Below are positions 1-20,626 of a stretch of 20,626 bases of DNA, piece by piece. Source of the DNA: a virus. The stretch's first letter is position 1. Each line of letters begins with the position of its first letter. Location: positions 1-20,626 of the IMG/VR virus record IMGVR_UViG_3300010970_000029; one strand, 5' to 3'. The translations under genes were made by a program, and so were the position numbers. The notes under the pieces are model-generated. The model worked only from the letters and a program-made list of their open reading frames with translations. It was not told the DNA's origin and made no database searches.

Positions 1-929
1 CCGAACAAGTTGTTGAGATTAAACTTGCCTTTGCCCTTATCTTTTTCGGGCTTCCAGCTATAGCGCTGGTTAGCGGCCCACTGAGCTTCAAGTTCCGGGC
101 TAGCTTCGGGGATGCGATTGAAGATACTTTTCTCGTCGCCAGCGGGGTTTAGACCGATCAGATTACTCAGCACAGCCCACTTACCGCCACGGAAGTTTTC
201 ACCGGAAGACCCGAGACCGCCGCCGTTCACCAAGTCGCGTGCAAGGGCACTGATTCCACCTTGCTGTAGGTCGTTTACAACCGCACCGAGCCCACGGATG
301 TTTGTGCCCGGTTTAGCATAGGAGCCGCCCATGCCCCCGCCGTTGATCATATCAAAAGCATTTGTATAGCCCGCACCGGGACCACCGCCGTTGATACGAT
401 CCCAGAAGTTTTTGTACTGGCCGGGGGTAGATGCTACGGCTGCTTTGCTTCCGCCACCGCTCGAAGACCCTGACGAAGACCCCAAGTATTTCTGTAGGTT
501 TGCAGGAATCGGCGTGCCCGTCTTAGCGTTGTCCATGGCAGCGTACATCGCCGAGGCTTTCTGGTTAGCCTCGTACCTGTCAGATTTAGCCGCCGCTTGG
601 CCACTGTCTGCCGCACCGCCGCCAGCCATGTAATCCACAGGACCGCCTTCGGCTTTCTTTTTTGCCTTATCGTCTGCGGGTTTCTCGAACTTAACCGGGG
701 CTTTGAAGCCGTAGTTCCATTCAGGGTCAACACCGTAGCGGTAGCCGGGAGGCGGCATAGACATACCGGGAGCAGGGGTAGCGGGAGCAGCAGGGCCAGA
801 AGGTAGTGCGGCAATCCCTGAAGGGGCCATGGCGGTGGGCGCGTTGCGGCTAGCCAACCACGTTTGGAATGGGACATTAGGCCGCGCTTGCAGATATGCC
901 TGTAGTTGCTGAAGGAACTCTGGAGCCAT
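1..929 (-). CDS. Phage virion-associated protein, partial (cut by left edge)
   Basis: This reading frame starts at an ATG at 929 and stays open to base 1, giving 309 residues without a stop, so the C-terminus lies outside the window. The first 30 residues (MAPEFLQQLQAYLQARP) look like a short amphipathic helix. A Pro/Ala-rich linker follows at about residues 33-62, then a basic patch (DDKAKKKAEGG) near residue 85. From about residue 140 the chain is rich in Gly and Ser, with a repeated NGGG-type word (INGGGPGAGY, INGGGMGGSY, LVNGGGLGSS). No catalytic motif or known domain is visible. Its place after the nozzle-like and 99-aa genes, at the end of the virion operon, suggests a minor structural or internal (ejected) protein. 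That is inference from position only. That the gene is real is well supported by the long open frame and codon use like its neighbours. Confidence 0.75.
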   Translation of the reverse strand, partial: MAPEFLQQLQAYLQARPNVPFQTWLASRNAPTAMAPSGIAALPSGPAAPATPAPGMSMPPPGYRYGVDPEWNYGFKAPVKFEKPADDKAKKKAEGGPVDYMAGGGAADSGQAAAKSDRYEANQKASAMYAAMDNAKTGTPIPANLQKYLGSSSGSSSGGGSKAAVASTPGQYKNFWDRINGGGPGAGYTNAFDMINGGGMGGSYAKPGTNIRGLGAVVNDLQQGGISALARDLVNGGGLGSSGENFRGGKWAVLSNLIGLNPAGDEKSIFNRIPEASPELEAQWAANQRYSWKPEKDKGKGKFNLNNLF

Positions 930-957
930 GATGTAACCCGTTACCCGTTGTTGCAGT

Positions 958-987
958 ATAATAGCACAATGTAGTGCATAAGTTCCA
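958..987 (-). promoter_or_regulatory. Possible extended -10 promoter before the left-edge gene
   Basis: In the 66-bp gap between the 99-aa gene and the left-edge gene, the minus strand carries TGC-TATTAT, with the hexamer at 958-963. This matches an extended -10 with one mismatch in the hexamer. The -35 is poor (TGGAAC at 982-987, 18-bp spacer). A small inverted repeat, GCAC-TACATT-GTGC, sits directly upstream of and overlaps the extended -10. No T-run terminator is present. The call is weak and based only on sequence likeness. Confidence 0.3.
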
Positions 988-995
988 TACGAAGT

Positions 996-1295
996 TTATG
1001 GAGCCTTGGTTATCTGGCCGACCCCACCCGTTGCAGCTAGTCCACCGACATTTGGTTCATTTGCTACGGCCACTTTGAGGTAGTAGTTACCGTCACGGAA
1101 CACAGCTCCGGGCTCCAACCCTTGGTCATTATCCTGCAAAGCGGTGAAGACCGTGAATGTGTTACGACCCTGCCCGGGGTTCTGTATCTGCTGTTGGTAC
1201 AGCGCGAACACGCGAGTGAGCTCCGACATATATCGGGGGTCGTATTCCTTTGGTGGTACTGGAAAGAGTGGGGCTGGGATATTACGAGAAGCCAT
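996..1295 (-). CDS. Conserved-type phage hypothetical protein, 99 aa
   Basis: The product is a 99-residue soluble protein. The N-terminal half is Pro-rich (NIPAPLFPVPPKEYDPRY) and followed by a helix (SELTRVFALYQQQIQNPG). The C-terminal half contains a beta-type stretch ending in a Gly-rich tail (LKVAVANEPNVGGL). The ATG at 1295 lies inside the 3' end of the upstream endonuclease gene, an overlap of 14 bases. The SD is poor: only a G-rich TGGGGTAG sits upstream. I recognise the general pattern (a short helix with LYQQQI, then a D-GLE-G--F segment) from small proteins near the end of virion operons in aquatic phages, but no function is assigned to it. A minor tail or internal virion protein is the likeliest role, by position. 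Confidence 0.7.
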   Translation of the reverse strand: MASRNIPAPLFPVPPKEYDPRYMSELTRVFALYQQQIQNPGQGRNTFTVFTALQDNDQGLEPGAVFRDGNYYLKVAVANEPNVGGLAATGGVGQITKAP

Positions 1296-1908
1296 GGTTA
1301 CTACCCCAGTGTATAGCTATTAAGTTACTACGTGCTGCCCTTGCTTCTTCTACAGTGTTGAACCCTTTTGTATATATTTTTTTGCGGGCTACACTAACTT
1401 CTCCATACCAACGCTTACCCCGCAACCGTACACCAATATTGGTATGTTGTTGAATATTGCGCGCCTGAATAGTTGGGGATGCCCAGCGACAGTTACCCGG
1501 TACATACCCAGAGTTCGGCTGTATGCGGTCAAGTGTTTCATTACCGATAGGTTCACCCATATCGTATGCAAAAGTCTCATAATCGTGCCACGGTAGATGT
1601 ACATAAATGCCCCGTGCACCATACCGCGAGTAGTCTTTATCTTTTTCGTTGTAGCAGCGCCGCATCATAGCCCTCCAAGTATTGTATGAGGACTTATTAC
1701 TACCACCGTGCGTAGTAATGGATTCTACCGATAAGCACCCGCATGAGTGCGTATTCCCCGAGCTTAAGCTGCTACCCACCACACGTACTGTTGCCCCACA
1801 ATCGCATACACATTCCCATAGGCGCTTACCATGTGAGCTGCGACCAATATCACATATAGCAACTAACCTGCCATACCTGACCCCGACCCTATCTACTTTT
1901 TTCGGCAT
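1282..1908 (-). CDS. Free-standing HNH homing endonuclease with zinc ribbon and AP2 domain
   Basis: This 208-aa protein has three recognisable parts. Residues 31-59 form a zinc-ribbon-like element with Cys33, 35, 37, 56 and 58 (WECVCDCG and SCGCL). Residues 78-145 are an HNH-type nuclease core of the family with W--M--RCYN, YGARGI, LDRI (126-129) and PGNCRWA (137-143). Residues 159-200 match an AP2-type DNA-binding domain (GVRLRGKRWYGEV, then GFNTVEEARAAR). Such proteins are mobile endonucleases that cut a related phage's DNA so that the gene is copied into the break. The ATG at 1908 has a near-perfect SD, AAGGAGGTAGAT. The gene sits between the nozzle-like gene and the 99-aa gene, overlapping the latter by 14 bases. 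It looks AT-richer than its neighbours by eye. The family call is confident; the target site is unknown. Confidence 0.9.
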   Translation of the reverse strand: MPKKVDRVGVRYGRLVAICDIGRSSHGKRLWECVCDCGATVRVVGSSLSSGNTHSCGCLSVESITTHGGSNKSSYNTWRAMMRRCYNEKDKDYSRYGARGIYVHLPWHDYETFAYDMGEPIGNETLDRIQPNSGYVPGNCRWASPTIQARNIQQHTNIGVRLRGKRWYGEVSVARKKIYTKGFNTVEEARAARSNLIAIHWGSNHGFS

Positions 1909-1931
1909 ATCTACCTCCTTGCGACAGAGTC

Positions 1932-1960
1932 TTTATCGCTATAATCATAGCATATGTCAA
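1932..1960 (-). promoter_or_regulatory. Putative sigma70-type promoter for the HNH/AP2 endonuclease
   Basis: On the minus strand TTGACA (1955-1960) matches the -35 consensus exactly. It is separated by 17 bp from GATAAA (1932-1937), which has 4 of 6 matches to the -10 consensus. The -35 overlaps the TGA stop of the upstream 623-aa gene. A small hairpin, GCTAT-GATT-ATAGC, lies in the spacer. The predicted start falls just ahead of the SD of the endonuclease gene, so the mobile gene may be expressed independently of the late operon. Confidence 0.5.
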
Positions 1961-3828
1961 CGGCGACCGTCTGTGCGTATGTCGAGGCGAGGTGCACCAA
2001 GACGCCATGTGGTACCGACCTCTGTGCTTGCCACCTTGAACGTGAAACTACGACCGCGCAGGCGCGTGAACACCTGATGCGTAAACTGTTCGACAGGATA
2101 TGAGCTCGTCTTTGTGATTACGTTCGAGTTTGTCTGGCTAAAGTCTGCACCGGGGAAGTTCGACATACTGACGGTAAACGTGGCCTGCGGATTAACTGCT
2201 TCAGAGTTCCTGAACGTCAAGTCGGGGATCAGACGCCAGATAAACGCGAACGAGTCCCCATCCCCAAGGTCTTGCCCCGTGGATTCAATGTAGGCTGAGA
2301 TGCCCACAGGGGGGTTTTGGCTCCCATCATCAGTTCCGACTTCGTGCAGGTATGTATAGCTATCGGCGGGCGATGCCGCGATAGGGTAGATACCAAGGTT
2401 CTTATGCGTCCATGCAGAACGCGCCATTGTCCCGAAGTACCAGATGCGCTGCTGGTAGTTATAGCAGACGTAGGAATCGTTATCGGTCGCGCCCTCAGTA
2501 TTGCTTTGGTAGAACCACCAAACTTCCCCAAAGTTGATGTTGGCCCCGGCCACGACTTTCTGGGTCTGTGAAGTGTCGATACGGGAGAATATATAGTCTT
2601 TCACATCGCAGGGTATCTGCGTCACAGTGCCGTTATAGACGTAGAAATCGCCTTCCCCCATCCAGTACACAGCATCGTCCACAGCAATTGCAGCGTTAGG
2701 ACTCGTGATAGAGATGTTGTCCGAGACCATCGTCAGGCCGAACGTAAACGGAGGGCCCAGATACTGTAGCGCGTGCACTGATGTATCAGTGATAACGAGT
2801 ATCTGCTGCTTAGTTTCAACTGCGGTAATGATAGCGGAACCCGAACCGATACGGATAGACCCTGCACTGTTCGTAGGAAGTGACCTCCACTCCGTGAGGT
2901 CTTCGGCTTCGCTAAAGCGGATCAATAGTGGGTCTTGCGTACCAATGCTAAACTCGTCATCGCAGCCAAAAGCGAGCACGTGGCGGTCATTATCGCTTAC
3001 CATAACCTGCTTTGCGATAGTCGGAGCTTTACCGTCAGTAGCCCCAGCCAAGGAGGACAGCTCTACGGCACGGGGATATGAGGTGTTCTTAACCCAGTAG
3101 TAGATGCCACCGTTACGCACGTTGAACAGCAGGTTCTCGCCGTAGTTGTCATGCCCCCACAGACGGAGCTGCGCACCCGGCGTGGTTGTCGTAGCAGGAT
3201 CACCCCAACCTACACCACCCCAAACCCCTGCGCCCCACCCGGTACCTAGGATGGAAGTATCCAGACCCGTGTTGATTTGGTACTCCGCGAGAACCGTTCC
3301 GCCTCCAGTTACACCCCCTGCGGACGCTGACCCCCCAGTATCTATAGTATAAGTGTTTCCTGTCGGAGTCGTCAGGACTTGATGTTCTTTGTTTAGCTGC
3401 GCTGTGGTGATTCCATCTACCGCGGTAGCCCCGGAAAAAGTAACAAAGTCGCCCGGATAGCAGCCGTGGGCAACATCGGTAACAGTAACAATCCCCGACC
3501 CTGCGGATACAGTTGTGAAGGGGTCTGTAAGCGTAGGGCTAGGAAGCCGTAGAGGTGTGATGTCGTTGAGCGCGCCGCTGCCCGAAACATAGTATTTCAA
3601 GTTGGTGCCGAACCCGATGTATTCGTTGCCGTCGAGCGCCACCCATGGATGAATAGCACGGCAAGTGCCGAGCAGGGCGGCAGGGTTAAACTTCTGCCAC
3701 CCACCAATTTTCTCTGGGTATCCTGCACGGAAACGGACTTTATCAGAGTCCCACCAGCCACCCTCGTTCGCATAAGCGGTGGTTTCGCGGTTTAGTCCCG
3801 GCTGGAACTGGAGCTTCATTAACGGCAT
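1957..3828 (-). CDS. Tail nozzle / DNA-stabilisation-like structural protein, 623 aa
   Basis: This 623-residue protein begins MPLMKLQFQPGLNRETTAYA, followed by GGWWDSDKVRFRAGYPEKIGG. That N-terminus is typical of a large phage structural family in aquatic podovirus-like genomes, compared functionally with P22 gp10 or the T7 gp12 nozzle. The middle is beta-rich with regularly spaced Trp/Gly blades (GAGVWGGVGWGD, RLWGHDNYGENLLF, AVYWMGEGDFYVYNG, VWWFYQSN), as expected of a beta-propeller. Residues of about 107-180 carry an insertion-like module (VTDVAHGCYPGDFVTFSG) also seen in the 157-aa head protein. The C-terminus ends TWRLGAPRLDIRTDGRR, which recurs in this family. The ATG at 3828 has AGGAGG five bases upstream. 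The family recognition is from memory; the exact gp10 or gp12 equivalence is inference. Confidence 0.75.
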   Translation of the reverse strand: MPLMKLQFQPGLNRETTAYANEGGWWDSDKVRFRAGYPEKIGGWQKFNPAALLGTCRAIHPWVALDGNEYIGFGTNLKYYVSGSGALNDITPLRLPSPTLTDPFTTVSAGSGIVTVTDVAHGCYPGDFVTFSGATAVDGITTAQLNKEHQVLTTPTGNTYTIDTGGSASAGGVTGGGTVLAEYQINTGLDTSILGTGWGAGVWGGVGWGDPATTTTPGAQLRLWGHDNYGENLLFNVRNGGIYYWVKNTSYPRAVELSSLAGATDGKAPTIAKQVMVSDNDRHVLAFGCDDEFSIGTQDPLLIRFSEAEDLTEWRSLPTNSAGSIRIGSGSAIITAVETKQQILVITDTSVHALQYLGPPFTFGLTMVSDNISITSPNAAIAVDDAVYWMGEGDFYVYNGTVTQIPCDVKDYIFSRIDTSQTQKVVAGANINFGEVWWFYQSNTEGATDNDSYVCYNYQQRIWYFGTMARSAWTHKNLGIYPIAASPADSYTYLHEVGTDDGSQNPPVGISAYIESTGQDLGDGDSFAFIWRLIPDLTFRNSEAVNPQATFTVSMSNFPGADFSQTNSNVITKTSSYPVEQFTHQVFTRLRGRSFTFKVASTEVGTTWRLGAPRLDIRTDGRR

Positions 3829-6217: not shown

Positions 6218-7948
6218 TCATACAGTGGTAGGGGACCAGATTGGGTTCTGGGCAGGAGTTACGTCACTATACCCTGTAGAAGTAGCTGGGACAACACCCA
6301 CGTAACTAGGCGTCTGGTTAGGCGTTACGTTTGAGTACGCAGCCGAAGTGCTGGGGATCAGCGGGTTATAGTTCGGGTCTTGGCCGGGTACTACGACACC
6401 CCAAACAAGTGCATTTCCGACATAACCATAGGCGGATACGCCTGTGACGTATACGATACGGGAAATCTTAACAGTGACAGAACCGACTGCGCCTGTCGCC
6501 AACACGCCTGTGACTAGGACGTTTGCCACACCAATTACTGATGCGGAGCCCACTTGCCCAGTGGCGGCTACGCCTGTGACCGACACACGAGCCTTTGCGA
6601 TTACGGTTACTGTGCCTACTGCACCAGTGGCAGCTACGCCTGTGACCGACACACGAGCCTTGGCGACAACAGTTGCAGTGCCGACTTGGCCTGTAGCTGC
6701 AACACCCGTGGGTAGAACTCGCGCCTTAGCGACAACGGTCGCAGTGCCAACCTGACCTGTGGCTGAAACGCCCGTGACCGGGGCTATCGCCTTGGCGACA
6801 ACAGTCGCAGTGCCAACCTGACCTGCGGCTGAAACGCCCGTGATAGGGACAATGGCTTTTGCTACTACTGTAGCCGTGCCTACCTGACCTGTAGCTGCAA
6901 CGCCCGTGGGTAGGACTTGTGCCTTGGCAACAACAGTGACCGAGCCTACCTGACCAGTTGCGGAAACTCCGACTAGGGAGACCCCAACAACTGCGGTTCC
7001 CACCTGACCTGTAGCGGCTACGCCTGTGACAGGTACAGCCGCCTTGGCTACGACTGTAGCTGTGCCAACTGAGCCTGTGGCAGCTACCCCAGTGACGCTA
7101 ACAGATACACTGGTAATTGTGGTTACGGTGGCAGTACCGACCTGACCCGTGGATTCCAGCCCAGTAACGGAGACAGATACTGTCTGAGGTATTAGGGGGT
7201 CGCCGACCTGCCCAGTAGCAGATACACCTGTGACTGAAACCGCGGTTGTAGTAGGACGCAATGCCAATGTAGCCGCGGTCCATGCGTAAGCGGTGCTGTC
7301 GGCAGTTAGCGCCCACGCAGCGGGATCGTATGAAACTCCACTTGGTTGCCCAGTAACATAGCCAGACCCACCTGTGCCTCTGTAAGTACCACCACTACGA
7401 GCTACTTGACGAAAATCCGTCATGTACGCAGTTGACCCAGCGGTAAACGTAGCTGTAGCTCCAGAGGCGGCTGCGGAGTTGCCAAAAATAGCTATGACGT
7501 TGCCGCTGTACGCTGGGGTTATAGCCGCAGGGTTCACGTTACCTGAATTACTACCCGTAGCAGTCGTGGTAGTCGGGTCAAAAGGTGTTGTTGTGTTTAC
7601 ACCGCGCCAGACCTGAATGTTTACAGTGGCAGCAGCGTTTGAAGAAGTTGCGCCCACAACAACAAGGTTGGTGTCGGGCGTACCACCCATAAATTTACTA
7701 AAGACTGCAAGGTTGGAGTTGTTTGTGTCGGCTGCGAAGAGTTCAGTAATTAGCGAGAAACCGCCCGTAGATATACGGGCAGAGAGAGTTGCGTTACCGC
7801 CAGCACCTTCCCCGTAGCCTACGATTACAAGGTCGCCAGCGGCGGGTACAGAGTTGGAGCCACCAGTTAATGCGTAGGTGATTGTGTTGGTGGAGGGTGT
7901 GGCTACGGTTACAGAAAAAGTCTGACCGCCAACGTATGAGATAGCCAT
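6218..7948 (-). CDS. Repeat-containing tail/adhesin-like structural protein, 576 aa
   Basis: The N-terminal 230 residues look like a beta-sandwich (jelly-roll) domain common in phage tail proteins: TFSVTVATPSTNTITY, AAGDLVIVGYGEG, VNIQVWRGVNTTTPFD and finally AATLALRP. About thirteen repeats of 21-24 residues follow, with the core TGVAATGQVGTATVVAKA (see the repeat entry). The last 60 residues are Pro/Thr/Ser-rich with a different short repeat (YSNVTPNQTPSY and YSDVTPAQNPIW). The protein is probably an extended surface or tail spike component, but no enzymatic motif is visible. The ATG at 7948 directly abuts the stop of the 104-aa gene. The gene lies next to the fibre gene, which supports a tail location. 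Confidence 0.75.
   Translation of the reverse strand: MAISYVGGQTFSVTVATPSTNTITYALTGGSNSVPAAGDLVIVGYGEGAGGNATLSARISTGGFSLITELFAADTNNSNLAVFSKFMGGTPDTNLVVVGATSSNAAATVNIQVWRGVNTTTPFDPTTTTATGSNSGNVNPAAITPAYSGNVIAIFGNSAAASGATATFTAGSTAYMTDFRQVARSGGTYRGTGGSGYVTGQPSGVSYDPAAWALTADSTAYAWTAATLALRPTTTAVSVTGVSATGQVGDPLIPQTVSVSVTGLESTGQVGTATVTTITSVSVSVTGVAATGSVGTATVVAKAAVPVTGVAATGQVGTAVVGVSLVGVSATGQVGSVTVVAKAQVLPTGVAATGQVGTATVVAKAIVPITGVSAAGQVGTATVVAKAIAPVTGVSATGQVGTATVVAKARVLPTGVAATGQVGTATVVAKARVSVTGVAATGAVGTVTVIAKARVSVTGVAATGQVGSASVIGVANVLVTGVLATGAVGSVTVKISRIVYVTGVSAYGYVGNALVWGVVVPGQDPNYNPLIPSTSAAYSNVTPNQTPSYVGVVPATSTGYSDVTPAQNPIWSPTTV
6400..7245 (-). repeat. About thirteen 66-bp coding repeats (22-aa units)
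   Basis: Within the 576-aa gene a unit of about 66 bp recurs about thirteen times, encoding [VL]-x-TGV-[AS]-ATGQVGTATVVAKA. The central units are nearly identical at DNA level; for example the word cctacctgacc recurs 66 bp apart at 6879 and 6945. The outer units are diverged and differ in length (21-24 residues). The pattern of alternating small and branched residues predicts a short beta-strand per half unit, hence a repetitive beta structure. Central homogeneity with diverged ends is typical of arrays that grow by unequal recombination. Confidence 0.9.
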
Positions 7949-8726: not shown

Positions 8727-9299
8727 TCAAGGCCGTATCTCCTCTTGTTTGGTAGCGGCCTTCCTATCGGCCCACCATAGTTTCATCAACATAGAATGTT
8801 CATCACGCCGTGCTTGCTGCGCGCTCACCATCTTTGCGCGGGTGTCATCGTTATGTACCTTACCATAACGATGAGACATTTCAGTAGGGAGGCCCGCATT
8901 CCATACAGCTTGCCCCTTTTTGAACTCAGTCTTTGGAGAGTTTCTGCCCCGCGCTTTGGCAGCGGCACTCATCTTCAAGCGAGACTCATCCGTATACTTA
9001 AAATCCTTGCGCGACACGGTTGCGCGCTCCCGCTCAGATGCAAAGATACGCGCAGTAAAGCCCGCCATTCTTCCGCTCATGGCCAACAGCGCCACCCATA
9101 ACCCGTGAGAGCTTGGATGTATACGAACGAGGAGTTTATGCGCGATGAAGTGTTCTTTTGCGGTTAACAATACTAGGTTGCTCTTTGTGTTGGAGCCACC
9201 CATACACTTGGGAACTATATGGTGCTTCTCAGCGTATCCAACCAACTGACGTTGAGAGGCTTTTTCCATTAATGCAGTATAAAGCCTCCCGTAGTCCAT
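8727..9299 (-). CDS. Free-standing HNH homing endonuclease with NUMOD3-like motifs
   Basis: This 190-aa protein has an N-terminal HNH core: EKHHIVPKCMGGSN at residues 24-37 gives the His pair 26-27, Asn41 lies in SNLVLL, and His50/His54 in AKEHFIAH. Downstream are two NUMOD3-like DNA-binding words (DESRLKMSAAAKARG near 103-117 and DDTRAKMVSAQQARR near 151-165), the usual modular DNA-binding elements of homing endonucleases. The long basic linker between them fits DNA tracking. The ATG at 9299 follows the upstream stop by one base, with AGGAGG eight bases ahead. The C-terminal stop overlaps a possible TTG start of the next gene. It differs in architecture from the other two endonucleases in the window. 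Confidence 0.9.
   Translation of the reverse strand: MDYGRLYTALMEKASQRQLVGYAEKHHIVPKCMGGSNTKSNLVLLTAKEHFIAHKLLVRIHPSSHGLWVALLAMSGRMAGFTARIFASERERATVSRKDFKYTDESRLKMSAAAKARGRNSPKTEFKKGQAVWNAGLPTEMSHRYGKVHNDDTRAKMVSAQQARRDEHSMLMKLWWADRKAATKQEEIRP
8739..8745 (-). promoter_or_regulatory. Shine-Dalgarno inside the HNH gene, serving a possible TTG start
   Basis: On the minus strand AGAGGAG lies 8 bases before a TTG at 8730-8728, within the codons for the last residues of the NUMOD3 endonuclease (QEEIRP). The TTG overlaps the endonuclease TGA as TTGA. This decides between two starts of the downstream structural gene: TTG with a strong SD, or the ATG at 8709 with a poor one. Confidence 0.5.
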
Positions 9300-12069: not shown

Positions 12070-12702
12070 TTAGTACACCTTTGCCCCGTTCTTACCACGG
12101 ACAGCGCAGCCGCAACCGCGGACAGAGCCACCTTTTTTCATGTTCTGCGGGGTCGGACCCTTGGGCATCGTACCCACACCACTCGGAGGCATTGGAGCCA
12201 TTCCGCCGCTCGTCGCTACTCCAATAGCGGGCTTAGCCGGAGACATACCACGCGGAGGCATTCCGCCCATACCACGCGGGGGCATTCCGCCCATACCACG
12301 CGGAGGCATTCCGCCCATACCACGCGGGGGCATTCCGCCCATACCACGCGGAGGCATTCCGCCCATACCACGCGGGGGCATTCCGCCCATACCACGCGGA
12401 GGCATTCCGCCCATACCACGCGGGGGCATTCCGCCCATACCACGCGGAGGCATTCCGCCCATACCACGCGGGGGCATTCCGCCCATACCACGCGGGGGCA
12501 TACCACCGGGGACGATACGTGACGGAGAAGACATAGCCGTCTTCATGCCACCCTGCTGCGCCTGTGCAGCGATGTCGCGCCCGCGAGTGTTCATCATGTC
12601 AGTGGGGGTAACGAGACCGCCCATTGCCATCTTCTTGGATTTCTTAGCTTTCTGGCGGTTGCCGAAGAACTCTTTAGACATTCCGCTGCGTCCGATTGCC
12701 AT
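12070..12702 (-). CDS. GGMPPRGM-repeat protein, 210 aa
   Basis: This 210-aa protein has three parts. The N-terminus (1-65) is basic (FFGNRQKAKKSKKMAMGG) with a possible helix (DIAAQAQQGGMKTAM). Eleven perfect or near-perfect GGMPPRGM octapeptides follow, encoded by a 24-bp tandem array. The C-terminus ends KKGGSVRGCGCAVRGKNG and resembles the end of the 224-aa protein. No enzyme motif is visible. Gly-Gly-Met runs are also known at the C-terminus of GroEL, and RG-rich repeats can bind nucleic acid. Neither parallel proves a function here. The ATG at 12702 has AGGAGAG about five bases upstream, overlapping the preceding TAG. It sits between head proteins and adaptors, so it is probably virion-associated or an assembly factor. 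Confidence 0.75.
   Translation of the reverse strand: MAIGRSGMSKEFFGNRQKAKKSKKMAMGGLVTPTDMMNTRGRDIAAQAQQGGMKTAMSSPSRIVPGGMPPRGMGGMPPRGMGGMPPRGMGGMPPRGMGGMPPRGMGGMPPRGMGGMPPRGMGGMPPRGMGGMPPRGMGGMPPRGMGGMPPRGMSPAKPAIGVATSGGMAPMPPSGVGTMPKGPTPQNMKKGGSVRGCGCAVRGKNGAKVY
12244..12507 (-). repeat. 24-bp tandem array, eleven units with 48-bp higher-order pattern
   Basis: The unit on the plus strand is cataccacgcggNggcattccgcc; starts fall every 24 bases from 12244 to 12484. The variable third-codon base N alternates a, g, a, g, a, g, a, g, a, g and then g, so the true recent unit is a 48-bp pair present five times plus one extra unit. The last unit also has a different end (ataccacc). The 24-bp period keeps all three minus frames open, so other frames produce shadow repeats. 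Confidence 0.97.
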
Positions 12703-13473: not shown

Positions 13474-13929
13474 TTAAACGTCCCAGACGCCGTTGTTGTA
13501 GATCGTGAAGACGAACACGCCAGTGAACGTACCCGCAGCGGCGGAAGCGCCGGAGATGCCATACACGGGGGTTTGGGCGGTCAAGCCTGTACCAACAACC
13601 AGCGAGCCGTTCGCGCCGATCAAGGTGCCCTTGGTATCAGCGTCAACTTCATTGAAGAAGCCGTCTGTGGTGGCCGCGGAACCGATGTCAATCGTGGGGT
13701 TTGTACCCGTAGCGCCACCAATGGTCAGCATATACAGTGGGACAGCGCCAACAGGCAGTACAAACGGGGTGCCAGTGGTACCCGATGTACCAACGCGCAC
13801 AACGGCGGCGGTACCAGATGCAACGAAGGAAACGACAACTGCCATCGTCAGGGGGGCGGGGGTCACACCAGATTCTTTAGCTGCGCCGCCGCTGGACCGC
13901 ATAAGTCCTTGGAAAGTGTTCAGTGCCAT
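13474..13929 (-). CDS. Putative virion structural protein, 151 aa
   Basis: This 151-aa protein starts MALNTFQGLMRSSGGAAKES and is otherwise rich in Ala, Val, Gly and Thr, with beta-type stretches (LTMAVVVSFVASGTAAVVRV, VGAVPLYMLTIGGATGTNPT). A more polar centre (DGFFNEVDADTKGTLIGANG) is followed by FTGVFVFTIYNNGVWDV. There are no Cys and few charges. This composition fits an abundant, trimeric capsid-decoration or other surface protein; the position after the capsid gene and its own flanking promoter/terminator signals fit high expression. The ATG at 13929 has AGGAG seven bases ahead. The decoration role is inference. Confidence 0.75.
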   Translation of the reverse strand: MALNTFQGLMRSSGGAAKESGVTPAPLTMAVVVSFVASGTAAVVRVGTSGTTGTPFVLPVGAVPLYMLTIGGATGTNPTIDIGSAATTDGFFNEVDADTKGTLIGANGSLVVGTGLTAQTPVYGISGASAAAGTFTGVFVFTIYNNGVWDV

Positions 13930-13953
13930 GTAGGTCTCCTGTCATTGGCTAGT

Positions 13954-14004
13954 CGGGACAATCCCGTCAGGAACAAGTATAGCATACAGTGCTTACGCAC
14001 TAAA
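13954..14004 (-). promoter_or_regulatory. Possible promoter and inverted repeat ahead of the 151-aa gene
   Basis: The 70-bp gap carries TGC-TATACT on the minus strand (hexamer at 13976-13981), an extended -10 with five of six matches. The -35 at 17-bp spacing is poor (TTTAGT, 13999-14004). Just upstream is GTGC-GTAA-GCAC, a small hairpin with a GNRA loop. Downstream, between the -10 and the SD, is CGGGA-TTG-TCCCG (13954-13966), which could act as an operator or 5' leader hairpin. Confidence 0.35.
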
Positions 14005-14575
14005 AGGAAGAGGTACTTAGTTTGTTGGATTTAGCGCAGTTATCGTTGTGGGTCATAATCTGGAGGTTCCATGGAACGTGGAGACCGCACACTACTTCTG
14101 ACCGCAAGGGGACAATATGATCGACTACGTGCTTGATCTTAGTCAGCTTCGTCATTGTCCGTGCCTGTGCGTACATAGCAGAAATAGCTGCTTTTTGCAT
14201 GGGGGTTAGCCAATGTGGCGCGGCCTCACGTGCACGACGTTTCCACGCATTTGCGGATATCTGTACATACTCGGGATTTCTGCTTTTCCAAGAACGTTTG
14301 TATTCGCGTACCATATCTGGTGCCCGAGATACAGCGCGAGCCTTTACAAGGTCTTTGTTCTTTTCGTAATAGCGGCGTCCCGCAGCTTTAGCGGCTTCAC
14401 TCTTAGGGTTTTCGGCGCGGCGGAGATTATCCGTAGTCCAGTCCTCTTTCATACACTCAGTACAAACTCCTTTGGTCTTACGAGGGGCTATGTGCCCGCG
14501 TGTGCAGGGCTCACTAGTGAAGTAGTATTTTGCCCCAGTATCTTTAGCTTCTTTGCGTGTTTTAGGGTAGTCCAT
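14000..14575 (-). CDS. Free-standing HNH endonuclease with N-terminal zinc motif
   Basis: The protein is 191 aa from the ATG at 14575. Residues 20-41 hold a zinc-binding pattern (EPCTRGHIAPRK and GVCTECMKE; Cys24, His28, Cys38, Cys41). A long basic helical middle (about 50-115, NKDLVKARAVSRAP) probably contacts DNA. The HNH core is C-terminal: HVVDHIVPL at 149-157, VCGLHVPWNLQI at 162-173 and NCAKSNK near the end. An earlier in-frame TTG at 14629 lies inside the -35 element, while the chosen ATG has a perfect GGAGGT four bases ahead. The gene interrupts the spacer between the capsid gene and the 151-aa gene and has its own promoter. It is probably a mobile homing endonuclease. Confidence 0.9.
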   Translation of the reverse strand: MDYPKTRKEAKDTGAKYYFTSEPCTRGHIAPRKTKGVCTECMKEDWTTDNLRRAENPKSEAAKAAGRRYYEKNKDLVKARAVSRAPDMVREYKRSWKSRNPEYVQISANAWKRRAREAAPHWLTPMQKAAISAMYAQARTMTKLTKIKHVVDHIVPLRSEVVCGLHVPWNLQIMTHNDNCAKSNKLSTSSF

Positions 14576-14579
14576 AGGT

Positions 14580-14585
14580 ACCTCC
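14580..14585 (-). promoter_or_regulatory. Strong Shine-Dalgarno fixing the HNH start
   Basis: GGAGGT on the minus strand lies four bases before the ATG at 14575. It rules in favour of the shorter HNH protein over the longer frame that would start within the promoter. Confidence 0.8.
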
Positions 14586-14600
14586 ATATACGATACTGGA

Positions 14601-14629
14601 AACATACCTAGTGTAGGGTTCACGGTCAA
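14601..14629 (-). promoter_or_regulatory. Putative sigma70-type promoter for the HNH gene
   Basis: TTGACC (14624-14629; five of six) and TATGTT (14601-14606; four of six) are separated by exactly 17 bp on the minus strand. The site lies directly after the capsid-gene terminator and ahead of the endonuclease SD, so it would restart transcription for the endonuclease and the structural gene behind it. Confidence 0.6.
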
Positions 14630-14688: not shown

Positions 14689-15594
14689 TTATGCCCCCGT
14701 ACTGCCATAAATGCCCAACGGGTCCGAAACGCCGAAGCTATAACGTTCACGAGCCTTGTAGCGAACGTTGCCTGTATCAAAATCTCCGTCCATTGCAGTC
14801 GTCATGGCGGTACGCACAAAGTGCTTCATGCCGTTCGGAACGTCAGTGGTCAGGAACCAAGCATCGGTGTCGGTCAGGTAGTGGTTGACCGCATAGCCAC
14901 CGGGGATCGTGCCGTTGTTACGGATCGCGTTCACATCGTTGTCGGCGGTGCCTACGCGCTGATCCGACTCAAGGAGACGGGTAGCGATAAACATCGTCGA
15001 GGGTGGGATGATCAGCTTGCGCGGACGGGCAGCAATCAACAGACCACGTTCGTCTTTGAACGCAGCAATATCAATCGTGGCCTGTTCCAGAGCCGTTTCG
15101 TTCAAGTCAACGTCCGTCGAAGGACGGTTGGCGTTGGTGATGCCCGAAACAGTGGGGTGCGCAGTGTTGAACAGGGTCACGCCGTCACCCGAGGTGAAGG
15201 TGGTAAAGCCCGTGTTCAGCAGCGAAGCAGCTTTGACCTGCTTGGTGTACGCCATACCGCGGGCCAGAGCCTTGGTGTAGCGAGCCGACAGCGAGTCGTA
15301 CAGGTTATCTTCCATCGCTTCTTCAGTGATGGCGAAACCCATAGCCACGGTCTCGTGGGTATAACGAGCCGTGAACGATTCCTGCGCATTGTCATAAACG
15401 ATGGCAGAACCTTCGTTTTTAACAGGAGCTGCGCCGAAGCCCGACAGCTTGACTTCCTCTTCGAACGAACGTTCGGAGTTTTCGGTCTCGTAGATTTCCG
15501 TGTGCTCGTTTTCGTACTTCTTGTATTCCAGACCGAACAGAGCGTTCAGACCGGGCAGAAGTTCTTTGAGAGCCTGTGCGCGTGAAATTGCCAT
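14689..15594 (-). CDS. Major capsid protein, Mu gpT-like HK97-fold type
   Basis: This 301-aa protein is the probable main capsid subunit. After MAISRAQALKELLPGLNALF come EYKKYENEHTEIYETENSER and the beta-strand region FTARYTHETVAMGFAITEEA, then LYDSLSARYTKALARGMAYT, a spine-helix-like segment. GVTLFNTAHPTVSG is the NTAHP motif familiar from Mu gpT-like capsid proteins. AARPRKLIIPPSTMFIATRLL, shortened here, precedes the C-terminal domain with YFLTTD-type strands and FDTGNVRYKARERYSFG. Length suits this family. The position after scaffold and the strong SD (AAGGAGGG, overlapping the upstream stop) suit high expression, and the strong terminator behind it marks the end of the head transcript. 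Confidence 0.88.
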   Translation of the reverse strand: MAISRAQALKELLPGLNALFGLEYKKYENEHTEIYETENSERSFEEEVKLSGFGAAPVKNEGSAIVYDNAQESFTARYTHETVAMGFAITEEAMEDNLYDSLSARYTKALARGMAYTKQVKAASLLNTGFTTFTSGDGVTLFNTAHPTVSGITNANRPSTDVDLNETALEQATIDIAAFKDERGLLIAARPRKLIIPPSTMFIATRLLESDQRVGTADNDVNAIRNNGTIPGGYAVNHYLTDTDAWFLTTDVPNGMKHFVRTAMTTAMDGDFDTGNVRYKARERYSFGVSDPLGIYGSTGA

Positions 15595-15607: not shown

Positions 15608-16228
15608 TTACACGCCAACGGCGTTTGTCAGGCTGTGATAGCCCGGATTGAACTTCACCAGCACTTCGCCATAGGTGTCACCCGATGCCGATACGATGCT
15701 GACGATACGGAACGCAGCCGTGGTAGTGACCACGGTGGACTCCAGCGCGGAAGTCGAGTTGCCGTTCGGGATGTTCCCCGTCGAGGTGGACTGAGCCGCC
15801 GCGAAGAAGGTGTTGGTCCCGATGGCCGACTGAGCGACAGCACCGTCCAGTTGCGCTTGGAACAGCACGTTCGGATCATCGACAACGTATGCCTTGATCG
15901 AAGTGCCAGTGGGGGCAACGTACCCGGTCGGGTAGTATTGCGCGAAAATCAACTGCCCTTGGGCGTTGACATATTCGCAGCCGACAAACACGCCCAGCGA
16001 ACCAGTCAGCGTACCGCTGCCCGGAAGCGAGTTGGTGGTGCCGTCTGCGCCCGTCCCGGTAGACAGGACGAGGTAGCCGCTGGAGTTCAAGTTGACGACC
16101 TGACCATTATAGATGTTGGTCGAGGCCCCAGCGGGGTCGATAAGGTACTGGGACGTTGCCCCAGCATAAGCCATGCCATCTGCCCGCTTTACGGGCTTAA
16201 GGCCATAGGGTGCGTTGACCATCGACAT
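15608..16228 (-). CDS. Virion structural protein upstream of capsid gene, 206 aa
   Basis: This 206-aa protein begins MSMVNAPYGLKPVKRADGMA, followed by YAGATSQYLIDPAGASTNIY. That N-terminal pattern (N-P-GL-PV-----G) is typical of a structural protein encoded just before the capsid gene in many aquatic phages. The rest is beta-rich with few charges: VNLNSSGYLVLST, LGVFVGCEYVNAQGQLIFAQ and YYPTGYVAPTGTSIKAYVVD. It could be a capsid-decoration or capsid-stabilising protein; a maturation partner is an alternative. The ATG at 16228 has AGGAG nine bases ahead. The stop lies inside the capsid gene's SD, so expression is probably coupled to the capsid. Confidence 0.75.
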   Translation of the reverse strand: MSMVNAPYGLKPVKRADGMAYAGATSQYLIDPAGASTNIYNGQVVNLNSSGYLVLSTGTGADGTTNSLPGSGTLTGSLGVFVGCEYVNAQGQLIFAQYYPTGYVAPTGTSIKAYVVDDPNVLFQAQLDGAVAQSAIGTNTFFAAAQSTSTGNIPNGNSTSALESTVVTTTAAFRIVSIVSASGDTYGEVLVKFNPGYHSLTNAVGV

Positions 16229-16269: not shown

Positions 16270-16716
16270 TTAACCCCGGCCAAACGTAGTGCGGGACGAA
16301 CGCTCCGGCGCAAGGACGGGCATCCGTGGGTCAGACTCGCGGAGGTAGTTACGATCCACGGCATCCATCTGAGCTTGCGCTTCGAGGGATTGGCCAATGG
16401 CGCGGTCCTCCGCAACTTCGGCGGGAATTGCACAGAGCAAGAGCCCACCGACTTCGATGTTCTCAGGGAAGCGCGAGTCAATATCAGTCATGATATGGAG
16501 CTCGGGAAATTCGGTCGCCTTTACAGGCACATAACCCTCACGAAAACGCCGAGACACGTTCGTCATATCTGCCTGACCCAAGGCGGAGGTGCGAACCCAC
16601 CGGAACTTCATTCCAGCACGGGGTTCGGGGGTCGGCAACATGGACTGCCGTTTCCAAGAACTTTTACGCTCGCCAGCTTCGCGAGTCTGTTGGGCACGGG
16701 GAGTACGTTCAGCCAT
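16270..16716 (-). CDS. Head-module hypothetical protein, 148 aa
   Basis: From the ATG at 16716 the protein is 148 aa and starts MAERTPRAQQTREAGERKSS, a disordered basic region to about residue 45 (WKRQSMLPTPEPRAG). A folded core follows with MKFRWVRTSALGQADMTNVS, FREGYVPVKATEFPELHIMT and GGLLLCAIPAEVAEDRAIGQ. The C-terminus is polar and ends RSSRTTFGRG. The alternative start ten residues earlier falls well within the scaffold gene and lacks a good SD, while the chosen ATG has AAGGAA eleven bases ahead. I recognise the F-RWVR pattern from proteins between scaffold and capsid genes of aquatic phages, without a function. A capsid assembly accessory is plausible. Confidence 0.75.
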   Translation of the reverse strand: MAERTPRAQQTREAGERKSSWKRQSMLPTPEPRAGMKFRWVRTSALGQADMTNVSRRFREGYVPVKATEFPELHIMTDIDSRFPENIEVGGLLLCAIPAEVAEDRAIGQSLEAQAQMDAVDRNYLRESDPRMPVLAPERSSRTTFGRG

Positions 16717-17620
16717 TGGAGGATTCCTTGAGGAGTTGCGCCGCATAAACTTCAGGCTTGAGACCCAGACGCTTGGCGAGTGCGACCTGAGTTGAGGTCA
16801 AGACAACCTTGCGCGGTGTGACATTGGTCTGACGACCAGCAGGAGCCACCACGGAACTCATTTGACGGCGGGTTGTCTTTTCCTCAGTTTTCCCATCGTC
16901 AAACCTGTCTGCGAACACACGGCGAACCGATGTGTTAATTTGATTATAGTATTCTTCGCTATCTGGCGCAACACCTTGCTTAATCAGGCGTTCATGCACG
17001 CCGTAAGCGTACCCGGTCATCTCGTCGTCCTTTTGGAACCACGGATTTTGTTGGGCCCAAGCGGTCGCACGCGAGGATGGAGGCGGCGGACCTGCGGGAC
17101 GTTGAGCAGGCGGTTGAGCCTGCTGTTCCTTTGTCGGGCGCTGCGGGCGGAAGGCGTTAACACGCGATTCCTCGTTTTTCAGCTCCGTCATACGCAGTTG
17201 TGCTTCAGTCAGGGCATCGCCATCACCAGCTTCGTATGCGGCTTTAAACTGCGCCTTAGCCTGCTCCAGTGCCGTACCGATACGCTGCTTGGCTTGGTCA
17301 AGCGAAACATCTTCGGTCGCTTCCAGACGGCGGGCCATGTGGTCCCGCTCTTCCTTCAGCTTGACCGCGATGTTGATGGCCTCTTCACGGAGGCGTGCAT
17401 CTTCTTCGCGGGCGCGGCGCTCAGCATGATAGTCATACTTCAGCTTGTTGATGCGCTTCTTAACCTTGTCGGAGTACCCTTCAAGGTCATCATCGTCATC
17501 GTTAGACGCTGCGGCCTGCGTTTCGGTAGCTTTCGGCTTACCGCGGTCAGGTTCCGGCGTATCGTCGATGATTTCCAGCTCGATTTCGCCTTCGTCATCG
17601 GTTTGATTATTGTCGTTCAT
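16709..17620 (-). CDS. Capsid scaffolding-like protein, 303 aa
   Basis: The N-terminus is strongly acidic (DDEGEIELEIIDDTPEPD and NDDDDDLEGYSDK). A long Lys/Arg/Glu-rich coiled coil follows at about residues 48-105 (KKRINKLKYDYHAERRAREE, then DARLREEAINIAVKLKEERD). A Pro/Gln linker lies near 165-185 (QQAQPPAQRPAGPPPP), then a helical segment (WFQKDDEMTGYAYGVHERLI). The C-terminus is basic (TPRKVVLTSTQVALAKRLGL) and could bind the capsid subunits, as in other scaffolds. Scaffold proteins direct procapsid size and leave before packaging. The start overlaps the co-chaperonin stop by four bases (ATGA), so the two are co-translated. The call rests on architecture and gene order; no protease motif is seen. 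Confidence 0.82.
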   Translation of the reverse strand: MNDNNQTDDEGEIELEIIDDTPEPDRGKPKATETQAAASNDDDDDLEGYSDKVKKRINKLKYDYHAERRAREEDARLREEAINIAVKLKEERDHMARRLEATEDVSLDQAKQRIGTALEQAKAQFKAAYEAGDGDALTEAQLRMTELKNEESRVNAFRPQRPTKEQQAQPPAQRPAGPPPPSSRATAWAQQNPWFQKDDEMTGYAYGVHERLIKQGVAPDSEEYYNQINTSVRRVFADRFDDGKTEEKTTRRQMSSVVAPAGRQTNVTPRKVVLTSTQVALAKRLGLKPEVYAAQLLKESSNG

Positions 17621-17985
17621 GCGCGGCTGTACCCCCGTGGGTCTTCGACGACTGCCTCTACGGTATCGTCATTGATTAAGCGGAACTCTTTGCCCAGCAC
17701 CTTGAAGCGGGTGCCTGAGTAAGAGCGGAAGATGATGAAGTCACCTTCGGCGCAGTACGGGCCGTTCGGGAACTTATTCTTGTCCACATAGCACTCCGCA
17801 CCAAGTTTGATGACATACCCTACTACGGATGCCACTTCTTCTTCGCGCTTGAGCTTGTTGGGGATGTAGACGCCACCCTTGGTGGTATCGCTTAGTTCGG
17901 GTACCGCGATCAGGATGTGGTAGCCCACTGGGTTAGGCAGCTTCGCGAGAACTTCCGCGTCTTCGACTTTATCAGCCGTATACAT
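17617..17985 (-). CDS. GroES-like co-chaperonin (Cpn10 family)
   Basis: This 122-aa protein matches the Cpn10 fold along most of its length: PVGYHILIAVPELSDTTKGG at residues 19-38 starts the barrel and leads into the mobile loop. The loop motif KGGVYIPN (36-43) corresponds to the KGGIVLT-type tripeptide that docks on GroEL. VASVVGYVIKLG (51-62) is the conserved V--G-V---G strand, and GDFIIFRSYSGTRFKVLGKE (81-100), ending with VEAVVEDP, matches the C-terminal barrel. An insertion (CYVDKNKFPNGPYC, 65-78) is longer than in GroES. Phage co-chaperonins such as T4 gp31 replace GroES to fold the capsid protein. This one sits between portal and scaffold genes, fitting that role. The SD is GGAG, eight bases before the ATG at 17985. 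Confidence 0.92.
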   Translation of the reverse strand: MYTADKVEDAEVLAKLPNPVGYHILIAVPELSDTTKGGVYIPNKLKREEEVASVVGYVIKLGAECYVDKNKFPNGPYCAEGDFIIFRSYSGTRFKVLGKEFRLINDDTVEAVVEDPRGYSRA

Positions 17986-18025
17986 ATCAATCTCCGCAAC
18001 AGTTTTAGGTACTGTCGTTACCTTG

Positions 18026-18085
18026 CGTGGAACTACTCCACGATGCGTTTAAGGAGTAATCTACATTGTACTATAGTTCAATGTA
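18026..18085 (-). promoter_or_regulatory. Two hairpins in the leader of the co-chaperonin gene
   Basis: The 85-bp gap before the co-chaperonin holds TACATTG-N10-CAATGTA (18062-18085, spanning the stop of the 62-aa gene) and CGTGGA-GTAGT-TCCACG (18026-18042). Neither is followed by a U-tract, so these are not classic terminators. They may limit read-through or shape the leader of the co-chaperonin mRNA. No convincing promoter is visible here. Confidence 0.35.
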
Positions 18086-18259
18086 CCTTTTCTCCAGTTC
18101 TTTGATGTCTGCTTCCGTATCGCTCAGTGCGGCGTATTCGCCGACTAAACGGCAGTAATCTTCAAAGTTTTTGGCCCCGCCAGTGGCGAGACCTTGTTCG
18201 ATATGCTGCTTACGCTCGTTGATCCTGCGTAGGAGGAGTTCGAAGATGTTACTTTCCAT
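18071..18259 (-). CDS. Small head-module protein, 62 aa
   Basis: The product is a 62-aa, highly helical protein: MESNIFELLLRRINERKQHI, then EQGLATGGAKNFEDYCRLVG, ending ADIKELEKRYIEL. It is soluble and charged, with heptad-like Leu/Ile spacing. The NF-DY-RLVGEY-AL pattern is one I associate with small proteins encoded directly after the portal gene in aquatic phages; function is not known. The start overlaps the end of the portal gene by 11 bases, so translation is coupled. It may assist portal assembly or be a small terminase- or connector-related factor, but nothing in the sequence proves this. Confidence 0.75.
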   Translation of the reverse strand: MESNIFELLLRRINERKQHIEQGLATGGAKNFEDYCRLVGEYAALSDTEADIKELEKRYIEL

Positions 18260-20626
18260 TTGAGGTATTCCGTGTTGCGTCCATGACTAGCTTGGCACGA
18301 TCAAGCACGCGCTTATGGTCGTTGGCTTCGCGCTGTACCCCGATCTGGGCCCCAGCACGCTTGTTCTCAGACTCGAGGCGCTGCTTCTGAATCTCAATGT
18401 TCGCCTGATTGTTCTGCGCCGTGACTTGTAGTTTCTGTTGCTCAAGCTGCAACTTGCCCTGAACCTGCATCTCTTTGATCTGCAACTCTTTCTGCTGAAT
18501 CTGGGTCAGTGGGTCTTGGGCATCCTGCTGTGCTTGTTGCTGCTGTACCTCTGCTTGGTTCTTCTGGAGCAGCTTCTGCGCGGCTTGGGCCACAACTTGC
18601 GACAGTTGGACTTCGACATCCTCAGGGAGTGCTTCATCCTCGGAGGGCAACGGTACACCAAGCTGCTTCTCAATACCTTTGCGGTACGCCATAGCGAGGT
18701 GCTCGTTGATATGCGCTAGCATGGCAGACTGGATAGCCTGTGCGAACGGCGACTGGCCGATCATCTGCTGGAGCTTGGGGTCTTGCATAGCCGCTTGGTG
18801 GACAGCGATGTGCGCATCGTGATCCTGATACAAGAACGCCTTGATGGGCTCCTGCTTGAGCAGCGCCATGTTTTCCGTAACCGGGTCTTTCGGCTTCATG
18901 TCTTCCGGCAGCTTGATGATGTTATCCGCATCCTTGATGCCAAGAACTTCCAGCATCTGCTGGTGAAGTTTCCCAAGGTCGTAGAGCTGCGGTGCTTGCT
19001 GCGCCAGTTGGAGGGCCGCTTGGTACTGCATAACGCGCTGAGCCATAGTAGCAGCGTTAGGGTCTGACACAGGGATAATATCGACGGGCCCACCAAAGTC
19101 CTCCTGACGGTTGAAGTCGCCCTCAACCTCGTAGTCGTACTCGGGAGGCATATACTCTTTGATGATACCCGCCAGCAGACGGAGTTCATCTTTCATGGCG
19201 GCGTGCAGGCGTGCCTGTACCCCAGACATAACCTTCAGGCTACGTTCGAGGATAGCGAGGGTCGTACCCACGGGGGCTTGGCCACCCATGTCGCTGATAG
19301 AGATGTCGGCTACGGAACCGATACGCCGTCCTTCCTCGACCACGTTACCCAAGAGCGTATAGAGGACTGCGGAGGGTTCCTTATACGGCATCGGGAACAG
19401 AGAGTCGCGGAGCGTACCGCCTGCAACGTCTGCGTCTCGCCACTCACCGGGCATCAGCGGAGTGTTATCCCCTTTGATACGCAGCGAGCGGGACTTTAGC
19501 CCTGCCGGGAGGTTAGACAGGGAGCCAGCGTCGATGAGCTGTCGCAGGATCGACGTAGCCGACTTCGCGAGTCCACCAATCAGGTGGATCAAACCTGTGC
19601 CGTAGAACCCCATACCCGGCAAGTACGGGTAGTGTACCACGTGCATACGCTTCTTCTTGGCCTCGTCATCTTCATACCAATTACGGCGAATCGACAGAAT
19701 TGTCTTAGAACTCTTGTCGATAGTGATGACGTAGGGCAGGGCAATGCCATCTTCGGACGAAAATTCGCCCGGAAGATCAACGTCTACGTGCATTTCGAGG
19801 ATGGTATAGCGGTCATCGTCGGTCAAATACGTGGGGTCTTGACCCTCAATTTCGTTGTATTTTTCCTCAATATCGCTGCGATCTGGCTCTGGATCGGGCA
19901 AATCTACTTCCCGATAGAAGCCCACAGACTGCAATTTTGCGATGTCGTTGGCCGTTTTACGCATCAAATGGGTGTAGCGCGGGCAGGTACGGAGGTTAGA
20001 GGCCCCATAAGAGACCACAAAATCCTCTGCGGGGACGAAAATAGACACCGGACGCTTCTCGATGGGGTCGAAATACAGCTTTTTGAAGGCTGAACCTGCC
20101 AAAGGCAGGCGGAACAGCATCTGTTCCATCTCGTTGCGGTAATCGGGCATCTGCTCGGTGATCTGGTAGTTCATCTCCTGCTCGACACGGTAGGCTTGGC
20201 GCGTCTTTTCAGGGGTGATCTTACCCACGATCTTGCTGCGTGCGGGCCCGCTGGCGGGCATCAGCTCGCCCATAGCTTGCGCTTGGAACCGGACCACAGC
20301 TTCGGACAACATAGGGTGATACACCCCGGAGGCACCCATCCACGGCTGCGTGCGGTCCTCAACCTTCATGCCAAGCAGGTCTAGACCCTTGATGTAGGCC
20401 ATAGCCCACTCTTTACGGCTGGTCTGGTCGGCCAAGAATCCATCTACGAGCTCATTTGCGAGCGTACCAAGCTCAGGGTCATCCATGAACTCTGCAAGGT
20501 TCGCATCATGGTCCGTAGCACCCTCGGAATCGCTATCGCCGCCGCCAAAGTCGATGATCACGCCGCCATCTTCGGTTTCGGTGACGATACTATCTAGCGG
20601 AGAAGTCTCTCCAGTCTCAAGATCGA
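18249..20626 (-). CDS. Portal protein, partial (N-terminus beyond right edge)
   Basis: The frame is open from 18249 to the right edge. A GTG at 20561 could be a start, but 21 further codons (ending SIVTETEDGG) run in frame to base 20626 without a stop, so the true start is probably outside. From that GTG there are 770 residues. Portal signatures: DVDLLG-type helix YIKGLDLLGMKVEDRTQPWM, then GASGVYHPMLSEAVVRFQAQ and AMGELMPASGPARSKIVG. The middle has NEMEQMLFRLPLAGSAFKKL and HYPYLPGMGFYGTGLIHLIG. The C-terminal 150 residues are a Gln-rich coiled coil (KNQAEVQQQQAQQDAQ and LQIKEMQVQGKLQLEQQK). The portal is the dodecameric DNA channel at the head vertex. Its family is one common to podovirus-like aquatic phages. 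Confidence 0.92.
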   Translation of the reverse strand, partial: DLETGETSPLDSIVTETEDGGVIIDFGGGDSDSEGATDHDANLAEFMDDPELGTLANELVDGFLADQTSRKEWAMAYIKGLDLLGMKVEDRTQPWMGASGVYHPMLSEAVVRFQAQAMGELMPASGPARSKIVGKITPEKTRQAYRVEQEMNYQITEQMPDYRNEMEQMLFRLPLAGSAFKKLYFDPIEKRPVSIFVPAEDFVVSYGASNLRTCPRYTHLMRKTANDIAKLQSVGFYREVDLPDPEPDRSDIEEKYNEIEGQDPTYLTDDDRYTILEMHVDVDLPGEFSSEDGIALPYVITIDKSSKTILSIRRNWYEDDEAKKKRMHVVHYPYLPGMGFYGTGLIHLIGGLAKSATSILRQLIDAGSLSNLPAGLKSRSLRIKGDNTPLMPGEWRDADVAGGTLRDSLFPMPYKEPSAVLYTLLGNVVEEGRRIGSVADISISDMGGQAPVGTTLAILERSLKVMSGVQARLHAAMKDELRLLAGIIKEYMPPEYDYEVEGDFNRQEDFGGPVDIIPVSDPNAATMAQRVMQYQAALQLAQQAPQLYDLGKLHQQMLEVLGIKDADNIIKLPEDMKPKDPVTENMALLKQEPIKAFLYQDHDAHIAVHQAAMQDPKLQQMIGQSPFAQAIQSAMLAHINEHLAMAYRKGIEKQLGVPLPSEDEALPEDVEVQLSQVVAQAAQKLLQKNQAEVQQQQAQQDAQDPLTQIQQKELQIKEMQVQGKLQLEQQKLQVTAQNNQANIEIQKQRLESENKRAGAQIGVQREANDHKRVLDRAKLVMDATRNTSNGK

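Follow-up and report, generated by a model that had tools for sequence, protein, structure and literature searches.

Why a phage should keep a co-chaperonin gene among the genes of its head, and how it might set the dose of such a folding factor, are questions raised by a stretch of 20,626 nucleotides (hereafter the window; positions 1 to 20,626 of IMG/VR virus record IMGVR_UViG_3300010970_000029). Among phage co-chaperonins, T4 gp31 has so far served as the main worked example. For the window, our best explanation, which we consider likely, is that a phage Cpn10 protein caps host GroEL for head building and that a leader RNA tied to its gene controls its translation. It is above all this leader, a covarying pseudoknot, together with a tight link to the head genes, that makes the locus worth pursuing.

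A GroES-family protein among head genes

The groES ORF lies on the minus strand, reading from 17985 to 17617, with an ATG start and a Shine-Dalgarno GGAG, and encodes 122 amino acids. The original prediction had called its product a Cpn10-type protein and had named an HMM search and a predicted structure as ways of checking this; the ORF is real, and both checks agree with the call. Four approaches place the protein in the GroES family: Pfam PF00166 (Cpn10) scores 41.9 bits, well over its curated cut-off of 21.1, PHROG 3188 ('co-chaperonin GroES') matches at 5e-15, a PDB sequence search returns Cpn10 chains (best 3e-7), and the leading PDB matches of an AF2 model (pLDDT 83.6) are all Cpn10, T4 gp31 among them. 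This model was built on 79 diverse sequences (the window and its IMG/VR or MAG relatives), an alignment of 34 close relatives having given a pLDDT of 59 and been set aside; it has the Cpn10 beta-barrel fold and matches PDB Cpn10 chains with Z scores of 9.5 to 7.1, the best over 94 residues at 3.3 Å. Compared with the nearest relative (locus L001), groES has a dN of 0.04 against a dS of 1.4, the latter near saturation, and is therefore a constrained gene under strong purifying selection.

The surrounding cassette, all on the minus strand, begins with a portal protein (18249..20561; phrog_1216, 2.9e-40) whose gene start probably lies beyond the window, the ORF being longer in a related locus (L167). 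Between portal and groES sits a 62-aa ORF (18071..18259), recognised from the ORF list and from relatives. Downstream of groES come a 303-aa hydrophilic ORF (16709..17620; phrog_28737, of unknown function), a 158-aa ORF (16270..16746; phrog_36003), a 206-aa ORF (15608..16228; phrog_37556) and a Mu gpT-like major capsid protein (MCP) of 301 aa (14689..15594; PF10124, 9.6e-9; phrog_371, 1.4e-24). The stop codon of groES had been said to overlap the start of a scaffold gene. The overlap is there, a 4-nt ATGA at 17617..17620, and the same −4 offset is kept in 75 of 80 IMG/VR relatives. That the overlapping 303-aa ORF is a scaffold is plausible from its position, which is the same in relatives' cassettes, and from its composition (GRAVY −1.11, low aromatics); searches of Pfam and PHROG gave it no functional family match.

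Mobile loop, roof hairpin and tail

The KGGVYIPN mobile-loop motif described in the original prediction is present, with its two glycines and hydrophobic tripeptide, and residues 31-50 around it form the part of the AF2 model predicted to be flexible (pLDDT 57-65). VYI in place of IVL had been suggested as a possible adjustment to the host GroEL; nearly all close relatives carry a V/I-x-hydrophobic tripeptide (V/I-x-M/I/L) where the window has GGVYI, and this class is ordinary for Cpn10. What truly differs from bacterial GroES is a fixed addition of four residues after the tripeptide. Between the GG of the loop and the conserved Gly that follows, the spacing is 17 in the window and in all complete close relatives versus 13 in 35 of 35 bacterial GroES, which puts the extra residues at about 46-49 (17839..17850, minus strand), on the C-terminal flank of the loop; the PDB alignments show the same gap, its exact placement depending on the aligner.

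Residues 65-78 (17752..17793, minus strand) had been read as a 14-residue Cys-flanked insertion that might enlarge the folding chamber. The spacing between the flanking glycines identifies them instead as the usual roof hairpin, which exceeds its bacterial counterpart by a single residue (18 residues in the G62-G81 segment versus 17 in 33 of 35 bacterial GroES). Since the segment is no insertion, it cannot enlarge the chamber. A disulphide-closed chamber enlarger, considered as a variant of the same idea, is ruled out by the missing insertion and by the variability of Cys65, which is Ala in 82 of 94 close relatives. Cys78 is invariant among close relatives and Val or Leu in bacteria, and the fold is followed by a DPRGY(S/T)RA tail conserved in relatives.

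These features set the protein apart from both of its better-known counterparts. With bacterial GroES and with mitochondrial and mycobacterial Cpn10 it shares fold, tripeptide and roof hairpin; it differs from them in the four residues after the tripeptide, the conserved Cys78 and the tail, and the NCBIfam GroES models, built for housekeeping bacterial proteins, give it at most 37.4 bits where their cut-offs are 96 and up. T4 gp31 is likewise a phage Cpn10 (30.8 bits in Pfam) and is matched by the AF2 model at Z 7.1-7.7, yet the two have no usable sequence similarity. The mobile loop of gp31 has 22 residues against 16 in GroES, and its roof hairpin is missing (PMC6318259). In gp31 the loop is extended mostly ahead of the tripeptide, in the window protein behind it, and the gp31 roof is 10 residues long against 18 in the window, where the hairpin is kept; the window protein is thus not of the gp31 type. 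The genes are also placed differently: in the T4 stretch displayed, that of gp31 is not among the head genes, and that of the window lies inside the cassette.

Linkage to one capsid lineage

The claim that few phages carry a co-chaperonin proved wrong for this lineage, relatives of the window's groES being encoded in at least 595 IMG/VR stretches. Co-chaperonin GroES has already been listed as a core gene of HTVC023P-type pelagiphages (PMC9599517), and the window shares the arrangement that marks this type, with groES between the portal and an MCP of the phrog_371/Mu-gpT-like lineage. The order portal, small ORF, groES, ORFs of about 300, 155 and 200 aa, MCP is common to relatives and recurs in GenBank phages of Pelagibacter, Roseobacter, cyanobacteria, Caulobacter and Alcaligenes and in phages from spring water; departures from it are minor, for instance additional ORFs that separate groES from the portal gene. 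The GroES proteins of HTVC023P-type phages, HTVC027P, MinM2/Pag-Yong1, DSL-LC04 and CRP-901/902 belong to the same family, are likewise encoded ahead of the 300-aa ORF and the MCP, and are 25-50% identical to the window protein; those of the HTVC023P type have a longer N-terminus. The window co-chaperonin is an added member of a known family, ordinary for its phage lineage. Among about 85,000 species genomes, close relatives were found on only seven MAG contigs. A Maricaulis MAG (G005) gave eleven Cpn10 matches on many contigs, most likely because contigs of several phages ended up in one bin.

To avoid choosing loci by groES itself, we surveyed loci selected by their MCP, each with at least 2.7 kb of upstream sequence. 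A Cpn10 protein lay between portal and MCP in 95 of 95 (57/57 with a window-like MCP and 38/38 with one like that of the Alcaligenes phage), even where Cpn10 identity falls to about 20-25%. The sister group of ct7ZZ929 and vir526 has it in the cassette in 0 of 9 loci. We can rule out that this clade went without groES owing to an archaeal host without GroEL, since whole-record searches found Cpn10 outside the cassette in vir526, in ct7ZZ929 and in the record of a further locus (L316); the group's other records are fragments. Loci L373 and L374 (records BK063670.1 and MW202601.1) have Cpn10 outside the head cassette; the vir526 gene, from a virus that has been assigned to Methanomicrobiales, is just upstream of the terminase genes. 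Every head cassette examined of this MCP lineage thus has Cpn10 inside it, or elsewhere in those records of the sister clade that were checked whole, and a co-chaperonin appears indispensable to a large set of phages, most of them aquatic.

So strict a place within the head cassette could also mean that the Cpn10-like protein is no cap for GroEL any more and belongs to the head itself, as a structural component or an assembly factor such as a ring associated with portal or scaffold. The much altered mobile loop of some clades (QDWS535 type) and the long N-terminal extensions of the HTVC023P type would suit such a role. We nevertheless regard it as quite improbable, given that the window clade and most others keep the GG-hydrophobic tripeptide loop, that this loop is predicted to be flexible and that vir526 and ct7ZZ929 have their Cpn10 away from the cassette.

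Probable chaperonin partner and client

No phage Cpn60/GroEL was found in the 13 phage records searched, and the partner is therefore presumably a host chaperonin. Of six MAGs searched that include a contig with a close relative of the window's groES, five also encode a housekeeping GroES of their own, which scores highly. At locus L271, noted together with contig C376 of MAG G006, an ORF of 566 aa (1477-3177, minus strand) contains at least two Cpn10-like units, perhaps more, and adjoins a partial GroEL-like gene (3-1085, minus strand); the arrangement is possibly phage-borne.

We propose that the phage Cpn10 would form a heptamer, bind host GroEL and cap it during head building, replacing or competing with host GroES. 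Service to the capsid had been predicted from the gene's place in the head operon. The link to the head is strongly supported by the fixed order at all MCP-selected loci, and the main client is most likely the MCP or another head protein. T4 gp23 has about 56 kDa (PMC6318259). The window MCP, with 301 aa and a mass we put at about 33 kDa, is well below this, so a larger cage would not be needed for its size, and the size-based case for one should not apply here.

Alternatively, the co-chaperonin might serve host or general phage proteins by boosting or reprogramming host GroEL, its place in the operon setting no more than the timing. In its favour, T4 gp31 also stands in for GroES with host clients (PMC6318259), and in the T4 stretch displayed its gene is away from those of the head. 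Against it, groES stays inseparable from a single MCP lineage whose hosts differ widely, and we consider the idea unlikely. With so many phages apparently in need of a co-chaperonin, the question of which capsid proteins need a chaperonin, and why, becomes testable outside E. coli.

A covarying pseudoknot before groES

A structured leader, which the original prediction does not mention, first became visible in the 85 nt upstream of groES in relatives, as a hairpin and two interleaved pairs of complementary segments. In the window it spans 17983..18046 on the minus strand (covariance model 33.5 bits, E 3.7e-7) and consists of a hairpin, an H-type pseudoknot, the Shine-Dalgarno sequence and the ATG. 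Hairpin H1 (CGUGGA/UCCACG, 18026..18042) is paired in 100% of alignment cells, with two-sided change at each of the five pairs counted. Pseudoknot stem S1 (18007..18023) joins AGGUA at 18023-18019 with UACCU at 18011-18007; its first pair is AU, GU, GC or CG among leaders. Stem S2 (17997..18017), interleaved with S1, joins CGACAG at 18017-18012 with CUGUUG at 18002-17997; four of its six pairs change on both sides, the closing C-G pair is conserved, and the adjacent pair is usually U-U (G-U in the window). The Shine-Dalgarno GGAG (17992..17995) follows directly on the pseudoknot's UGC end.

When 24 leaders are aligned with plain MAFFT, 92.8% of the cells of the three stems are paired versus 24-51% when the partners are slid, and seven pairs change on both sides. 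The covariation score was reached by 0 of 500 shuffles, a count that is not a probability, as shuffling destroys kinship. With 54 leaders aligned to a covariance model, 93.4% of cells are paired, and slid controls, in which kinship is kept, fall to 26-56%; two-sided change occurs at 11 of the 15 pairs and in 80 cells. The model had been built from the hairpin and S2 only, and S1, outside the model, is still 95% paired. Distant relatives have rewritten helices (AAGCG/CGCUU, AAGGG/CCCUU, GGAG/CUCC) and cores (CUGGA/UCCAG, CGGAA/UUCCG, CCACUU/AAGUGG) and keep one frame, C-U-core ... core'-U-G-C. Single-sequence folding scored the window leader no better than shuffled versions (z −0.4), a nested folding that cannot see a pseudoknot, and a first, loose pseudoknot scorer was dropped as evidence as it fitted 19% of shuffled leaders. 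The comparative data show that the leader is a covarying RNA, made up of a hairpin and an H-type pseudoknot immediately upstream of the ribosome-binding site of groES. That the motif is conserved DNA instead, such as a promoter, operator or recombination site, has nothing beyond its place upstream of a gene to recommend it and is extremely improbable: the compensatory changes include G-U pairs, which occur on the mRNA-sense strand, the stems are interleaved, the spacing to the start codon is near-fixed, and pairing is nearly lost once the partners are slid.

With the covariance model, 79 of 80 IMG/VR relatives prove to have the element where groES starts, as does the window. Two DNA patterns, one for each of two divergent leader variants, were also scanned against all of IMG/VR without regard to genes. 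Cpn10 was the next ORF in 60 of 60 contigs for the first and, among the matches listed, in 78 of 78 assessable for the second (2 of 80 had no assessable ORF), together 138 of 138 assessable among the matches listed. The element is thus tied to groES. It is absent from the HTVC023P, Pag-Yong1, Caulobacter RW and Alcaligenes QDWS535 types and from locus L063, and the other phages compared above, HTVC027P, MinM2, DSL-LC04 and CRP-901/902, also have groES leaders without it; groES can therefore do without the leader.

In Rfam 15 no family scored above its gathering threshold in the window, and with E relaxed to 10 the sole match, an unrelated one of 10.7 bits, fell outside the leader. Two families invite comparison: the Pseudomon-groES RNA (RF01721), named for groES in Pseudomonas (PMC2864571), and the Mu-gpT-DE RNA (RF03012), found downstream of the MCP in this phage operon. 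The groES leader is matched by neither model, for the window leader even at E up to 10. The leader is thus absent from Rfam 15, and it may figure under another name in the Weinberg 2017 supplement.

Proposed control of groES translation

The leader is probably a cis-acting element of translational control. As the pseudoknot ends within a few nucleotides of the Shine-Dalgarno sequence, the folded leader should hinder 30S binding until unfolded or released and would in this way set or switch groES translation; the ATGA overlap would pass this effect on to the next head gene. Our first guess at the effector is a protein, perhaps a head protein or GroES itself. A phage parallel is the pseudoknot in the leader of T4 gene 32, an mRNA structure associated with autogenous translational repression (PMC3014915, PMC535899); we set the two side by side as an analogy only. 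Whether the leader represents a new class of cis-regulatory pseudoknot, specific to phage co-chaperonins and matching their supply to head assembly, possibly through feedback by a head protein or the co-chaperonin, is in our judgement evenly balanced.

The leader might instead be a metabolite riboswitch and not a protein target or fixed translation brake. Small riboswitches with a compact pseudoknot beside the Shine-Dalgarno sequence are known, and the groES leader resembles them in this. Even so, we find a riboswitch doubtful: few unpaired bases are invariant, groES is the sole gene found downstream of the element, and one leader (L112) seems by eye to hold tandem copies. The helix sequences also vary freely, which would fit a protein effector better than a metabolite pocket. 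The L112 arrangement, at about 3430-3512 on the plus strand before groES, appears to consist of two tandem pseudoknots and a hairpin in the same frame. As a short, well-defined RNA with groES as its only observed downstream gene, the leader pseudoknot offers a way to study how a phage regulates the dose of a folding factor.

Further observations in the window

A second structured leader may be present in the same operon, where a sub-threshold match to the Rfam Mu-gpT-DE model (13927-13972, minus strand; 32.7 bits, E 1.9e-5) ends at the ATG of an ORF after the MCP; a full match to this RNA occurs in locus L079 (6676-6728). Several minus-strand ORFs elsewhere in the window are also of interest. 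The ORF at 8727-9299 is like NUMOD3/HNH homing endonucleases, and those at 14000-14629, directly after the MCP, and 1282-1908 are by eye similar to it, with no Pfam match. A protein with about ten tandem GGMPPRGM repeats is encoded at 12070-12702, and the product of 6218-7948, with many VTGVAATGQVGTATVVAKA-like repeats and no Pfam match, is a probable tail or virion protein.
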